DNA of 64,000 nt from Bradyrhizobium barranii subsp. barranii (GTDB taxonomy: Bacteria; Pseudomonadota; Alphaproteobacteria; Rhizobiales; Xanthobacteraceae). This document shows positions 15,096 to 20,235 of the stretch, piece after piece. The notes beneath the pieces are model-generated. The model had not been told where the DNA came from and did no database searches. It saw only the letters and a list, made by a program, of their open reading frames with translations. The stretch is taken from the NCBI RefSeq assembly GCF_017565645.3, contig NZ_CP086136.1, positions 7,051,501 through 7,115,500 of the forward strand, in the 5' to 3' direction. The translations under genes and the position numbers were made by a program. Within the stretch, counting starts at the first letter, position 1; each line of letters begins with the position of its first letter.

Positions 15096-15653
15096 CTATG
15101 CCCCCGCGCGACCGTTCTTCTTGCCAACGGCATGGCCGTTGAGCTTCTTCTTGCCGGCCTTCGCGCCCGCCTTCTTGGCCTTGGCTTCCGTGCGCGCCTT
15201 CACCTTGGTGCGTTCGGCGCGGGCCTCGGCGCGCAGCTTCTTGCGCTTGGCCTCGCAGGAAGGGCATTTGCAGCCGATCGGCTTGAGATAGGCTTTGAAG
15301 TAGTCGGTGCCGTAATCGTAGTTGATCTCGTCGCCCGGCTCGATGTTCCTGATGGCGCGGATGAAGACCTTGCGCTCGCGCGGCCGGACGTCGGACTCGG
15401 CGTTGGGGCGGCAGGAATGGTTGATGTAGCGGGCGAGGTTCTTGCGCACCGACCCGTCGATGGTCCAGCGGTTGTTGAGCTCGAACAGATATTTGTTCTC
15501 GATCTCGTCATGCGCGGGAATTCTGGAGTCCAGGATCGGTCCGAAATAACGGATGATCCGGGTCCCCTTCTTGATCGGCATGGTGGCGAAGAGGCCAAGT
15601 CCGGTCTTGGAACGGCCGACGCGATAGGATTTGCTGGAAGCGATGGCTGGCAT
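15096..15653 (-). CDS. SET-domain protein with lysine/alanine-rich C-terminal tail
   Basis: 185 residues. Residues about 8-130 form a SET methyltransferase domain: GLGLFATMPIKKGTRI at the start, the cofactor/active-site block ARYINHSCRPNAE, and EINYDYGTDYF before a post-SET cysteine cluster CKCPSC. Such domains methylate lysine in proteins using S-adenosylmethionine. The last 50 residues are almost only Lys, Ala, Arg, Gly and Glu, like a histone H1 or Hc1 tail, and probably bind nucleic acid. There is no signal peptide. The substrate is unknown; a self, ribosomal or nucleoid target is possible. Confidence 0.88.
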   Translation of the reverse strand: MPAIASSKSYRVGRSKTGLGLFATMPIKKGTRIIRYFGPILDSRIPAHDEIENKYLFELNNRWTIDGSVRKNLARYINHSCRPNAESDVRPRERKVFIRAIRNIEPGDEINYDYGTDYFKAYLKPIGCKCPSCEAKRKKLRAEARAERTKVKARTEAKAKKAGAKAGKKKLNGHAVGKKNGRAGA

Positions 15654-16441: not shown

Positions 16442-17176
16442 CTATGCCGGCAGCTTCGCCGTGATGGGCGCCGTCAGCATCGCCTCGAGCAACTGTTCGG
16501 TCGTCGTCCCCTCGGGCAGCCGCCCCAAAATGTCCTCGAGACGGCCGTCGAGCAGCAGCATGGTGAAGCCGTGCACCATCGACCAGGCGCGCGCGATCGC
16601 GGCGCCCTGGTTCAGCGTCAGTGCGTCGCCGCTGATCTGCTCCTGCCGCATCATGCCGATGGCATTGGCAAGGCCGGCGAAGGAGGCCTCGGCCGCCTCG
16701 TGCAGCGAGGGCCTGGAATAGTCCAGCCGTTCGGTGCGGAACATGATGCCGTACATGCCCGGATGGGCCTGCGCATATGCGACATAGGCCTTCGGCCGCG
16801 CCAGCGCGCGCTCCAGCGGCGTGGTGGCGGCGTCGCAGGACGAGGCCATCGCCGCGTTGAACTGGCGGAAGCCGACGGCCGCGAGCTCGCTGAGCAGGCC
16901 GGTGAGATCGCCGAAATGATGGGTCGGCGCGGCATGCGAGACGCCCGCCTCCCGCGCCACCGCCCGCAAGGTCAGGCCGGAGAGCCCGTCGCGCTCCAGC
17001 ACCCGTTCGGCGGCCTGGAGCAGCGCCTCGCGCAGGGCGCCGTGATGATACGGCGTCTCCGTCTTCGCTACTGCCGGACGGCGTGCGGAACGCGCCTGCG
17101 CGCTCGCGGCCGACGATGTCTTGCGCGGGGTACGCGGCTTGCGCGCTGTTTCGCTCGTGGTGTCGCTTTTGGCCAT
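16442..17176 (-). CDS. TetR-family transcriptional regulator
   Basis: 244 residues from the ATG at 17176. A basic 38-residue N-terminal tail precedes the DNA-binding domain, whose helix-turn-helix reads LTLRAVAREAGVSHAAPTHH. A C-terminal TetR ligand domain (WHG-like, with RAWSMVHGFTMLLLDGRLED) completes it. It is divergent from a carotenoid oxygenase gene, and the intergenic region has two copies of a 19-bp palindrome that recurs upstream of the membrane-protein genes at 19094. It is therefore the probable repressor of both units and of itself. No Shine-Dalgarno sequence precedes the start, and the likely promoter would place the transcript start almost at the ATG. Confidence 0.9.
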   Translation of the reverse strand: MAKSDTTSETARKPRTPRKTSSAASAQARSARRPAVAKTETPYHHGALREALLQAAERVLERDGLSGLTLRAVAREAGVSHAAPTHHFGDLTGLLSELAAVGFRQFNAAMASSCDAATTPLERALARPKAYVAYAQAHPGMYGIMFRTERLDYSRPSLHEAAEASFAGLANAIGMMRQEQISGDALTLNQGAAIARAWSMVHGFTMLLLDGRLEDILGRLPEGTTTEQLLEAMLTAPITAKLPA

Positions 17177-17182
17177 TTGCAA

Positions 17183-17211
17183 GCTATATGACGCAATATT
17201 GACAGTGTAAA
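17183..17211 (-). promoter_or_regulatory. Promoter of the TetR gene
   Basis: On the minus strand TTTACA (17211 to 17206), a 17-bp spacer and TATAGC (17188 to 17183) form a fair sigma-70 promoter. The -35 box lies inside operator copy 17196-17214, which predicts autorepression. Confidence 0.5.
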
Positions 17212-17214
17212 GAT
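17196..17214. promoter_or_regulatory. TetR operator copy A1 (degenerate left half)
   Basis: ATATTGAC-AGT-GTAAAGAT. The right half is identical to the perfect copies and the left half matches 6 of 8 bases. It overlaps the -35 box of the regulator and lies just upstream of the -35 box of the oxygenase promoter. Confidence 0.6.
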
Positions 17215-17219
17215 TTCAC

Positions 17220-17248
17220 TTGACGAATGCGGCGATCGGCATTATTCG
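17220..17248 (+). promoter_or_regulatory. Promoter of the carotenoid oxygenase gene
   Basis: TTGACG (17220-17225), 17-bp spacer and TATTCG (17243-17248). The promoter is bracketed by operator copies A1 and A2, an arrangement repeated at 19027-19055. Confidence 0.5.
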
Positions 17249-17267
17249 ATCTTTACGATGTAAAGAT
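17249..17267. promoter_or_regulatory. TetR operator copy A2, perfect palindrome
   Basis: ATCTTTAC-GAT-GTAAAGAT is a perfect inverted repeat of 8-bp arms with a 3-bp spacer. It lies immediately downstream of the -10 box, so binding would block initiation. Confidence 0.75.
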
Positions 17268-17282
17268 AGGGAGGGATACGCC

Positions 17283-18680
17283 GTGCAGCACGACGCCGTC
17301 ACCGAGCGCCGCCATAACCTCGGTCCAATTCCATTCGAAGCCGATGCGCCATTCCTCAAAATCGTCGGGGAATTGCCGCGCGATCTGAATGGCGTGCTCT
17401 ATCGCAACGGTCCCAATCCGCAGTTCGATGCGCCCGGTGCGCACTGGTTCGTCGGCGACGGCATGCTGCACGCCTTCCACCTCGAGAACGGCCGTGCCAG
17501 CTATCGCAACCGCTGGGTCCGCACGCCGAAATGGCTGGCCGAGCACGATGCAGGCCGCGCGCTGTTCGGCGGCTTCGGCCGCAAGCTGCCGGATGCGCCG
17601 CCAAACCTCACCGACGGCGGCGTCGCCAACACCAACATCATCTTTCATGCCGGCAAGCTCTTGGCGCTGGAAGAAGCGCATCTGCCGACCGAGATCGAGC
17701 CGGGCACGCTGGCAACGCGCGGCTATCACAATTATCAGGGTCGCGTCGCCGGCAGCTTCACGGCGCATCCGAAGGTCGACCCGGTCACCGGCGAACTCGT
17801 GTTCTTCGGCTACAACGCCGCGGGTCCGCTGACCCCTGCCCTCTCCTACGGATCGATCGACGTAACAGGCAAGGCGACGCGCTTCGAACGTTTCGAGGCG
17901 CCCTATGCCAGCATGGTGCACGACTTCATCGTCACCGAGAACCACGCGCTGTTTCCGATCCTCCCGATCACCGGCAGCATGGAGCGCGCGATGAGCGGAC
18001 GGCCGCCTTATGCCTGGGAGCCGGACAAGGGCGCCTATGTCGGCGTGATGAAGCGCAACGGCACGGCCAAGGACATCGTCTGGTTTCGCGGTGAAGCCTG
18101 CTACGTCTTCCACATCATGAATGCGTGGGAGGACGGCAACCACATCATCGCCGACGTCATGCAGTTCGAGGAAGCGCCACTGTTTCCGCATCCCGATGGC
18201 CGACCGACGGATCCGGAGAAATCACGCGCCCGCCATTGCCGCTGGACGTTCGATCTCTCAGGGAAGACCGACCGCTTCCAGCAGACCTACCTCGACGATC
18301 TCACGGGCGAATTCCCCCGCATCGACGACCGCCGCGCGGGATTGAAAAGCCATCACGGCTGGTACGCCTGCGCCAATCCGCGGCTGCCGATGTTCGGCGC
18401 GCTGTCGGGCATCGTCCATGTCGACGGCAACGGCAGACGGCTCGGTCATTATCTGCTGCCGGCCGGCGATACCATCTCCGAGCCGGTGTTCGTCGAGCGC
18501 GCGACGGATGCAGCGGAAGGCGACGGCTGGCTGTTGGCGGTGGTCTGGCGCGCGCGGGAGAACCGCAGCGACCTCGCCGTGTTCAACGCCACCGATGTCG
18601 AAGCCGGTCCCGTTGCGCTGGTGCAGCTCGGCCACCGCGTGCCCGACGGCTTTCACGGCAATTGGGTGGGTGCGCAGTAA
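17283..18680 (+). CDS. Carotenoid oxygenase (RPE65/CCD family)
   Basis: 465 residues from the GTG at 17283, which has GGGAGGG 7 bp upstream; frames reaching further upstream run through the promoter and operator. The four iron-binding histidines of the family are present: about His162 (FTAHPKVDP), His213 (MVHDFIVTENH), His277 (YVFHIMNAW) and His458 (GFHGNWV). Such enzymes cleave a C=C bond of carotenoids, apocarotenoids, stilbenes or lignostilbenes with O2 and Fe(II). The gene is under the adjacent TetR repressor. The substrate cannot be inferred; lignostilbene-type aromatics are plausible in a soil organism. Confidence 0.9.
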   Translation: MQHDAVTERRHNLGPIPFEADAPFLKIVGELPRDLNGVLYRNGPNPQFDAPGAHWFVGDGMLHAFHLENGRASYRNRWVRTPKWLAEHDAGRALFGGFGRKLPDAPPNLTDGGVANTNIIFHAGKLLALEEAHLPTEIEPGTLATRGYHNYQGRVAGSFTAHPKVDPVTGELVFFGYNAAGPLTPALSYGSIDVTGKATRFERFEAPYASMVHDFIVTENHALFPILPITGSMERAMSGRPPYAWEPDKGAYVGVMKRNGTAKDIVWFRGEACYVFHIMNAWEDGNHIIADVMQFEEAPLFPHPDGRPTDPEKSRARHCRWTFDLSGKTDRFQQTYLDDLTGEFPRIDDRRAGLKSHHGWYACANPRLPMFGALSGIVHVDGNGRRLGHYLLPAGDTISEPVFVERATDAAEGDGWLLAVVWRARENRSDLAVFNATDVEAGPVALVQLGHRVPDGFHGNWVGAQ

Positions 18681-18690
18681 CTCTCGCCTC

Positions 18691-18730
18691 GTCATTCCGG
18701 GGCGCGACGACGTCGCGAGCCCGGAATGAC
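18691..18730. repeat. Short intergenic palindrome, family C
   Basis: GTCATTCCGGGGCGCGACGA and its near-complement ending CCCGGAATGAC form an imperfect hairpin directly after the oxygenase gene. It resembles small dispersed palindromes of Bradyrhizobium. Confidence 0.55.
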
Positions 18731-18759
18731 ATCGCGGATGTCACCAAAGAGGCCTGCAC

Positions 18760-19017
18760 ATGCCCTCGATCACCACAGATTGCCTTGCCGTCCTCGCCTT
18801 GGCCTGCGCCGCGCTCGCACTCCGGATGATCCGGCTGCGACGGAGCGGCCATGTCATCTTCAACGGCGGCATCTTGCTCTCGGTCGGCCTCCTGCTCGCC
18901 GCCGCGCTGCCGATCCTGTCACGCCTGCCCTGGGCGGAATTCGCCGACGAGGCGTCCGACCAAGCCATTGCAGCACTTCATTTTTTGGAAGTCACCTACG
19001 TTATTTTGACACTGTAA
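18760..19017 (+). CDS. Small membrane protein, 85 residues
   Basis: The ATG at 18760 has GAGG upstream. Two hydrophobic segments (about residues 8-24 and 32-54) and a third weaker one near the C-terminus suggest an inner-membrane protein. No family was recognised. The last codons and the stop lie inside the operator copy at 19003-19021, so coding and regulatory sequence overlap. It lies between two TetR-regulated promoters and may be read through from the oxygenase gene. Confidence 0.6.
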   Translation: MPSITTDCLAVLALACAALALRMIRLRRSGHVIFNGGILLSVGLLLAAALPILSRLPWAEFADEASDQAIAALHFLEVTYVILTL

Positions 19018-19021
19018 AGAT
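19003..19021. promoter_or_regulatory. TetR operator copy B1 (degenerate left half)
   Basis: ATTTTGAC-ACT-GTAAAGAT. The right half is perfect, and the left half matches the consensus at 6 of 8 bases. It continues into TTTCGCTTGAC, almost identical to the sequence that follows copy A1. Confidence 0.6.
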
Positions 19022-19026
19022 TTCGC

Positions 19027-19055
19027 TTGACCCGGTATCGCTCCTGATTTACTTA
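19027..19055 (+). promoter_or_regulatory. Promoter of the membrane-protein pair 19094-20235
   Basis: TTGACC (19027-19032), 17-bp spacer and TACTTA (19050-19055), bracketed by operator copies B1 and B2 exactly as the oxygenase promoter is. Confidence 0.5.
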
Positions 19056-19073
19056 TCTTTACAACGTAAAGAT
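19055..19073. promoter_or_regulatory. TetR operator copy B2, perfect palindrome
   Basis: ATCTTTAC-AAC-GTAAAGAT, the same 8-bp arms as copy A2 with a different 3-bp spacer. Confidence 0.75.
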
Positions 19074-19093: not shown

Positions 19094-19669
19094 ATGGCGA
19101 TTTTCCTGATCCTCGCGCCCTACGGCGCCTACACTTTCCTGATGCTGGTGACGTCGGCCACGATCAGCGTGTTCGCCGCGTCTGCGATCTGCCTCGCCAC
19201 CATCACGGTCGATGTCGCGCGCGGCCGCTCCGTGAAGATCCTGGCGATGGGCTCGGCGATCGTATTCGCCGCAATCGGCCTCTACCTCGCGCTGATCGAC
19301 CCGAAGCTCGGCACGCTGGGCGTCAAGCTGTCGGTCGATATCGGCATCCTCGTCATCTCGCTCGGCTCGATGCTGGTCCGCCACCCGTTCACGCTGCAAT
19401 ATGCGGTTGAAACGGTCCCGGCCGAGACGGCGGCGATGCCCGGCTTCCTCACCGCCAACTACGTCATCACCGGCGCCTGGACCGCCGCCGCGCTGTTGAT
19501 GATGGCCGCCAACATCGCGCTGCTCTACGTCCCCGGCCTGCCGCTCTGGTCGGGCCTTGCGGTCGCCTTCGCCGCCCGCAATAGCGCGATCTACTTCACA
19601 AAATGGTATCCCGAGTATCGCCAGATCAAATATGCTGCGCCCGCCGCCGCGCTGCCCCACCCCCATTGA
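19094..19669 (+). CDS. Integral membrane protein, 191 residues
   Basis: The ATG at 19094 has GAGG 7 bp upstream; a TTG at 19073 is in frame but lies in the operator. About five to six hydrophobic segments are visible, with a conserved-looking loop RHPFTLQYAVETVPAE between them. I do not recognise the family. The gene is 14 bp upstream of a YciB-like gene and shares its TetR-controlled promoter, so the two products may act together in the inner membrane. Confidence 0.8.
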   Translation: MAIFLILAPYGAYTFLMLVTSATISVFAASAICLATITVDVARGRSVKILAMGSAIVFAAIGLYLALIDPKLGTLGVKLSVDIGILVISLGSMLVRHPFTLQYAVETVPAETAAMPGFLTANYVITGAWTAAALLMMAANIALLYVPGLPLWSGLAVAFAARNSAIYFTKWYPEYRQIKYAAPAAALPHPH

Positions 19670-19683
19670 AGACAGGACAGACG

Positions 19684-20235
19684 ATGAAAGACGTATTCCG
19701 CCGGCTCGTCTCTGATTTCCTCTCCACCATCGTCTTCCTGGTAATCTATCTCGTGACCGACAACGTCATCCTCGCGACCGCAGTCGCGATCCTTGGCGCC
19801 ATCGGCCAGGTGGTCTGGTCGCGGGTCAAGGGCCAGACGCTGGGCTACATGACCTGGGCGAGCCTCGGCCTCGTCATCGTGCTCGGTGGCGCAACGCTGC
19901 TCACCCACGATCCGCGCTTCGTGCTGGCGAAGCCCGCGATCGGGCATGTCGCGATCGGCATCATCATGCTCAAGCGCGGCTGGATGCTGCGCTATCTGCC
20001 GGCGATCGTGACCGAGACCATTCCGGAATACGTTACCGTCGCGGGCTACGCCTGGGCCGCGCTGATGTTTGCGCTCGCCGCGGGGACCGTTGCGGTTGCC
20101 ATGACCGGCGACATGAAGTTGTGGGCCTTCTATATTTCGGTGGTCCTGATCGGCGCGAAGATCGTTGCGTTCGCGATCCAGTACGTGGCCTTCCGCCTGC
20201 TCATCGGCAGCCGTATTCGCGCAGCCCGCGCTTAA
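19684..20235 (+). CDS. YciB/IspZ-like septation-associated membrane protein
   Basis: 183 residues with five to six membrane spans. The middle segment GGATLLTHDPRFVLAKP and the spacing of the helices resemble the YciB (intracellular septation protein A) family, which influences envelope integrity and division. The start at 19684 follows AGGACAG. Unlike the usual chromosomal yciB, it lies in a TetR-controlled unit with an oxygenase gene close by, so it may be a paralogue with an inducible envelope-related role. Confidence 0.7.
   Translation: MKDVFRRLVSDFLSTIVFLVIYLVTDNVILATAVAILGAIGQVVWSRVKGQTLGYMTWASLGLVIVLGGATLLTHDPRFVLAKPAIGHVAIGIIMLKRGWMLRYLPAIVTETIPEYVTVAGYAWAALMFALAAGTVAVAMTGDMKLWAFYISVVLIGAKIVAFAIQYVAFRLLIGSRIRAARA

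Follow-up and report, generated by a model that had tools for sequence, protein, structure and literature searches.

The window, a stretch of 64,000 nucleotides from Bradyrhizobium barranii subsp. barranii (contig NZ_CP086136.1, positions 7,051,501 to 7,115,500), holds a gene for a TetR-type repressor and, pointing away from it, genes for a carotenoid cleavage oxygenase, a remnant MAPEG protein and two membrane proteins, here termed M1 and M2. Four palindromic sites and the promoter elements that go with them lie between these genes (Table 1). The N-terminal helix-turn-helix of the repressor clears the Pfam cut-off (24 bits for PF00440), and all 35 same-genus relatives have an orthologue, which in one case is truncated where the contig ends. 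In a different part of the window (15096-15653, minus strand) we noted a SET-domain protein (PF00856, 87.6 bits), here encoded by a bacterium; the stretches retrieved for 33/35 same-genus relatives contain a match as well.

Table 1. Genes, operators and promoter elements at the locus (positions in the window)
Feature	Position	Strand	Remarks
tetR: TetR_N + TetR_C_33 repressor	16442..17176	-	PF00440 37.2 bits, PF13305 49.4 bits; recognition helix SHAAPTHHF
tetR promoter, -10 (TATAGC on the minus strand)	17183..17188	-	read directly; 17 nt from TTTACA
Weak operator, pair 1 (ATATTGACAGTGTAAAGAT)	17196..17214	.	2 mismatches; retained 105/105; left-half base 3 never C; presumed weak
tetR promoter, -35 (TTTACA)	17206..17211	-	read directly; within the weak operator of pair 1
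Oxygenase promoter: TTGACG - 17 nt - TATTCG	17220..17248	+	read, plus conservation
Strong operator, pair 1	17249..17267	.	perfect palindrome, directly behind -10; C at base 3 in both half-sites, 104/105
Carotenoid cleavage oxygenase (RPE65 family), GTG start	17283..18680	+	PF03055 445.6 bits; H162, H213, H277, H458; F98/E130
85-aa ORF, internally deleted MAPEG remnant	18760..19017	+	aligns with both ends of full MAPEG genes
Weak operator, pair 2 (ATTTTGACACTGTAAAGAT)	19003..19021	.	2 mismatches; left-half base 3 = T in 92/92
Membrane-protein unit promoter: TTGACC - 17 nt - TACTTA	19027..19055	+	read, plus conservation
Strong operator, pair 2	19055..19073	.	perfect palindrome; C at base 3 in both halves, 92/92
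M1: helical membrane protein, no Pfam family	19094..19669	+	weak collinear similarity to IspZ
M2: divergent IspZ/YciB paralogue	19684..20235	+	PF04279 57.9 bits

An earlier note, made from the sequence alone, had described two perfect palindromes, each with a degenerate copy 52–53 bp upstream, and our window scan recovered all four sites where it had placed them (17196-17214, 17249-17267, 19003-19021 and 19055-19073, with 2, 0, 2 and 0 mismatches), spaced start to start by 53 bp in pair 1 and 52 bp in pair 2. Shuffling the window 100 times left a mean of 0.04 matches versus the 4 observed. The note had also proposed a genome-wide scan for the 19-bp palindrome; at up to two mismatches, the 11.4-Mb genome contains just these four sites and none for a reversed control pattern. 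A wider regulon in this genome was considered and rejected, as a relaxed pattern with at most one mismatch added a single site, within long open frames. Each of the 35 same-genus relatives carries 2–5 sites; among genomes of other families, 8/24 carry 1–2, similar to the reversed control.

How are these sites arranged relative to the promoters? A total of 121 loci (including the window) were scanned; removal of 2 that lacked an oxygenase and of 14 that duplicated an oxygenase stretch left 105 distinct loci, mostly from Bradyrhizobium. The TTGAC promoter with a 17-nt spacer that each pair had been said to bracket is there and is conserved: CTTGAC follows the upstream site by exactly 4 nt in 105/105 oxygenase regions and 89/92 M1 regions (the M1 regions of L171, L175 and L178 have no exact CTTGAC), and a TA follows 18 nt beyond CTTGAC in 104/105 and 89/92, respectively, the oxygenase region of L179 having CA in its place. 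The downstream site begins 5–7 nt after the start of this TA in 103/105 oxygenase regions and in the 89 scored M1 regions; the two exceptions, both on the oxygenase side, have offsets of 8 and -5. A generic sigma-70 scan, which requires T at position 6 of the -10 element, called neither forward promoter. On the oxygenase side, the upstream site also overlaps the -35 element of tetR and thus places a palindromic operator at the repressor gene's own promoter. In line with this, TATA stands at the place of the tetR -10 element in 104/105 oxygenase-side regions versus 4/92 on the M1 side, where a divergent gene is absent. The two regulatory regions indeed share one architecture, as had been proposed, but they are not otherwise different in sequence: their first 29 bp, covering the upstream site and the -35 block, are identical at 26/29 positions, and only the next stretch falls to 6/23. 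One region may therefore be a copy of the other.

Pair 1, in front of the oxygenase, is retained at 105/105 distinct loci, with a spacing of 53 bp (67 loci), 54 bp (35 loci) or 55, 52 and 42 bp (one locus each). The 42-bp spacing, which belongs to the locus with the -5 offset, is one helical turn shorter and hints at helical phasing, albeit as a single event. Pair 2, in front of M1, is retained in 92/100 loci that have M1, at 52 (63), 53 (28) or 54 bp (1). Where it is absent (13 loci), M1 is in 10/13 cases not found, fragmentary, or located 27–167 bp behind the oxygenase. Eight of these loci have M1: in three it lies 27–167 bp behind the oxygenase (L085, L203, L196); L154 and L156 hold just a fragment of it, L156 together with one decayed site; L183 keeps a single site with no standard pair detected; and L119 and L120, from another genus or family, have their own layout with no standard pair detected. 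The five loci in which M1 was not detected (L067, L088, L096, L136, L206) have pair 2 in 0/5 cases, with one site left in L136, M2 directly behind the oxygenase in L096 and L206, and a stretch for L088 that spans just 4.2 kb downstream. Conversely, in L097 and L187 M1-M2 lie kilobases away and still have their own operator pair. Within the pairs, the upstream copy has C at base 3 of its left half in 0/105 (pair 1) and 0/92 (pair 2) loci, versus 104/105 and 92/92 with C in both halves of the downstream copy. The 'degenerate' copies of the earlier note are thus not products of decay, but represent a conserved form of their own. Separately, we observed a further site pair (6770/6825) in L119:6770-7333, from another genus of the family, between the oxygenase and M1 and near an M2-like fragment.

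In one relative, a second, distant cassette (L100:1094-4710) combines a TetR with 49% identity, an M1 (42%), a DUF6790 membrane protein and an oxygenase (31%) that belongs to another subfamily, and has a diverged site pair 52 bp apart with 3 mismatches in each site. This cassette supports the linkage of TetR, oxygenase and M1.

What are the membrane proteins? They had been introduced as a YciB-like pair, a description that holds for M2 and reduces to a weak, remote signal for M1. M2 passes the Pfam IspA cut-off (57.9 versus 28.7 bits) and stays far under the septation-protein equivalog cut-offs (66.2 versus 180 and 50.7 versus 165.2 bits); because the genome encodes a clear, separate IspZ elsewhere (199 bits), we regard it as a divergent paralogue. 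M1 has no Pfam family at E 0.01, and a fold search in PDB gave no match (best E 2). Against an IspZ profile of 24/30 rows, it aligned over 142 columns with P 0.001 and a probability of 22%, as opposed to P 0.54-0.59 for reversed controls; with all 30 rows, including mis-framed ones, P was 0.034. M1 is hence at most remotely related to IspZ/YciB. Homology of M1 to M2 was considered too, and the profile comparison (P 0.09-0.10) was not significant; judged by eye, the predicted helices of the two proteins follow a similar order.

The short frame between the oxygenase and M1 yields no Pfam match and no full MAPEG domain; it aligns with the two termini, N and C, of intact MAPEG genes located at the same place in relatives. 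A full gene stands behind the oxygenase at 28/105 loci (e.g. L086:5457-5849, full domain, 69.5 bits). The MAPEG gene, though broken in the window, is part of the unit.

Might pair 2 drive M1-M2 alone, in an envelope role unrelated to the oxygenase, with the shared regulator a historical accident? A linkage of distant M1 genes with oxygenases was looked for and rejected: in the stretches examined at class level, 0/11 distant M1 loci have an oxygenase or TetR homologue nearby, and the 10 neighbouring proteins that were scanned are of various kinds, including a thiolase, a fatty acid hydroxylase, LysR and TPR proteins. M1 is therefore not dedicated to such oxygenases. Such homologues without an oxygenase, together with the 7/105 loci in which M1 is not found or fragmentary, would fit a separate role. 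Against it, in 95/100 loci with M1 the gene has either its own pair or a place directly behind the oxygenase, even when kilobases away, and we consider a separate role improbable.

The oxygenase itself was found in 33/35 same-genus relatives, the exceptions being L079 (without the gene) and L098 (contig end). Its iron-ligand histidines 162, 213 and 277 are kept at 105/105 loci and His 458 at 103/105, one exception being the frame-broken L125. In that locus (L125:5634-7029), the oxygenase matches in two reading frames with a break near residue 282/283, reflecting a frameshift or a sequence error. L164, titled Frankia sp. RB7, carries a Bradyrhizobium-type locus with a 91% identical oxygenase and is probably a mislabelled or mixed assembly.

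Which compound does it cleave? In NCBIfam and PDB, lignostilbene dioxygenases come out as the top matches (418 bits; LsdA, E 1.7e-94), and the unit could in principle switch the catabolism of 4-hydroxystilbenes derived from lignin or of resveratrol-like compounds. Yet 418 bits is about half of the curated equivalog cut-off of 800, and the match to '8'-apo-carotenoid 13,14-cleaving dioxygenase' likewise misses its cut-off (299.4 versus 675 bits). Moreover, LsdA Tyr101 and Lys134, which bind the 4-hydroxyl of 4-hydroxystilbenes (PMC8191317), are replaced by F98 and E130 (Phe in 105/105; Glu in 104/105, with Val in L194), while the equivalent of LsdA Phe59 is retained; by fit, the aligned chain positions of LsdA are one below the published numbers. 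For MapADO, the K169A variant is reported to have made 0.93 versus 19.73 mM vanillin in 1 h (PMC12308385), and we read K169, by its shared role, as the probable counterpart of LsdA Lys134. The 12 oxygenases examined beside related TetRs outside the window are all placed divergently to the TetR gene and have active sites of the types W/D (8), F/E (2), F/W and F/N, the Tyr/Lys pair occurring in 0/12 of those examined. Since the two contact residues are replaced, a 4-hydroxystilbene is an unlikely substrate, as is a lignostilbene switch as a whole. The same replacements weaken the aromatic or stilbene half of the ligand guess in the earlier note; its other half, an exogenous carotenoid-like compound, or another non-phenolic one, stays in contention.

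Alternatively, the switch might trim carotenoids that the cell itself makes. Carotenoid cleavage gives the family its name, and a CrtI-type desaturase scores over the cut-off in 4/35 same-genus relatives (G006, G008, G026, G033). None does so in the genome itself or in the other 31/35 relatives, some of them incomplete assemblies and all searched for the CrtI type only, and yet the oxygenase is present in 33/35. This makes an endogenous C40 carotenoid unlikely as the substrate, and we hold self-directed trimming to be very improbable. Conservation of the oxygenase where no CrtI-type desaturase was found rather points to a substrate that is probably exogenous and perhaps isoprenoid. Overall, the ligand guess narrows to a probably exogenous, non-phenolic and perhaps isoprenoid-like compound.

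Does the adjacent TetR recognize the palindromes? We collected TetR homologues from 385 genomes of the class; the matches listed (L263-L337) and 8 earlier loci, including the window, amount to 83 loci. Close to the TetR start, 17/36 and 8/47 loci carry the core TTKAC-N3-GTMAA, as compared to expectations of 0.34 and 0.13 derived from the remainder of these loci; in total, 25/83 loci have a core there and 58/83 do not. One of the 25, L307, has three close copies of the core palindrome before a TetR without a standard recognition helix in the alignment and, lacking a readable helix, was dropped, leaving 24 loci. Among these, residue X of the recognition motif S-x-x-A-P-z-X-H-F goes with operator base 3: His with C in 28/34 half-sites, Asn with A in 14/16, and Arg with G in 14/14. 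By locus majority, 23/24 agree, the exception (L101) being a tie, and 0/20000 permutations reach this value; in a held-out set fetched after the rule had been seen, 7/7 loci agree (75/20000 permutations). The permutation test takes no account of relatedness, and L303/L318, from the held-out set, as well as L269/L273 are near-copies. Along the tree, the recognition residue changes at least six times, and the well-supported independent pairs (H/C 3, N/A 3, R/G 1) are concordant or tied, none opposite; these are too few for significance in a sign test (p 0.25, 0.25 and 1).

In the window, the TetR has His at X and the strong sites carry C at base 3. Given that the residue predicts the base across the 24 loci, this argues that the window TetR very probably binds the predicted operators, and by the same code the upstream copies, whose left half never has C at base 3, would be bound more weakly. 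That the palindromes serve another regulator, with the neighbouring TetR a bystander, is highly improbable: adjacency by itself is weak evidence and further TetRs are encoded (9 matches of the window TetR in its own genome), but the homologues have the same core at their own start, base 3 shifts with the recognition residue, and the sole genomic sites at up to two mismatches surround tetR and its neighbours.

Members of this TetR group stand beside an oxygenase, also of other subfamilies than that of the window, in 13/83 loci including the window, with none detected in the stretch examined in 70/83. By helix type, and over stretches of unequal length, adjacency is seen in 8/14 SQxAPY, 4/30 SHxAP, 0/23 SPxAPYR/SAxAPYR and 1/16 other loci. 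Retention of the TetR alongside changing oxygenases suggests that it senses the substrate or the product of the oxygenase.

These patterns lend strong support to the central claim of the earlier note, co-control of the oxygenase and the membrane genes by one repressor: the sites are kept with the genes, pair 2 is missing where M1 is lost or adjacent to the oxygenase, and recognition residue and operator base covary. We propose that a local TetR-type repressor controls three units, namely tetR, the oxygenase (plus MAPEG in some relatives) and M1-M2. At each forward promoter, one dimer would sit on the strong palindrome, over the transcription start, beginning 5–7 nt after the start of the -10 element. 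A second dimer would occupy the weaker site, whose end lies 4 nt ahead of CTTGAC; it would sit roughly five helical turns upstream of the first, facing the same side of the DNA, and the two might bind cooperatively. Since the weak site in front of the oxygenase also overlaps the tetR -35 element, the repressor would act on its own gene as well, though more mildly. It would be released by a ligand, for which the lipophilic compound that the oxygenase cleaves, or the aldehyde that it yields, is the most likely candidate and uptake from outside the most likely source; the cleavage enzyme and the membrane proteins would then appear together. An effect of these membrane proteins on the envelope, as once suggested, is conceivable. 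Taken as a whole, this model of a local TetR, three units, paired operators and ligand release is likely to be correct. It describes a regulon of an ordinary kind, which is unusually well supported.

What could such a system be good for? Tentatively, and with doubt prevailing, this TetR group may act as a sentinel for exogenous apocarotenoid-like signals from plants or soil, repeatedly paired with different oxygenase subfamilies in Alphaproteobacteria and employing a one-residue operator code (His-C, Asn-A and Arg-G at base 3), with desaturase-less Bradyrhizobium degrading or remodelling the signal while adjusting the membrane. Should the ligand be a plant apocarotenoid, the locus would equip a bacterium to sense and degrade one class of root signals. 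With the residue-to-base rule, operators could further be predicted for uncharacterised TetRs beside carotenoid oxygenases. For a genus of legume symbionts, the window offers a local regulon that is complete and open to testing, with its sites, promoters and a predicted recognition contact. In the literature covered—titles and the starts of abstracts, with subscription papers largely outside—no description of this regulon or code was recognised.

Several known systems are reminiscent of parts of this locus. MtCCO (Rv0654) is a carotenoid cleavage oxygenase of Mycobacterium tuberculosis, a species without carotenogenic genes (PMC5133782). The likeness is that a bacterium which is not carotenogenic retains such an enzyme; the difference is that the window oxygenase reaches 299 bits versus a cut-off of 675 for the 8'-apo-carotenoid model, which we assume covers MtCCO. 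Rv0653c, adjoining Rv0654, presumably encodes a TetR. With LsdA, LSD4 and NOV1, the window oxygenase shares the family, the four iron histidines and the Phe59 equivalent, and it differs from them in having Phe for Tyr101 and Glu for Lys134. Similarly, M2 resembles the IspZ/YciB septation protein in exceeding the PF04279 cut-off, and M1 in its weak collinear profile similarity, whereas M2 scores 57 bits versus 199 for the genome's own IspZ and M1 lacks a Pfam match at E 0.01. TetR, QacR, AcrR and others exemplify TetR-family regulons that are local and have a divergent target gene. The window has in common with these a divergent repressor gene, palindromic operators over the promoters and probable self-control. 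Compared to those systems, it seems to stand apart by two copies of a pair of strong-looking and weak-looking operators that flank the promoters at about five helical turns, one of these copies residing at a promoter that has no divergent gene.
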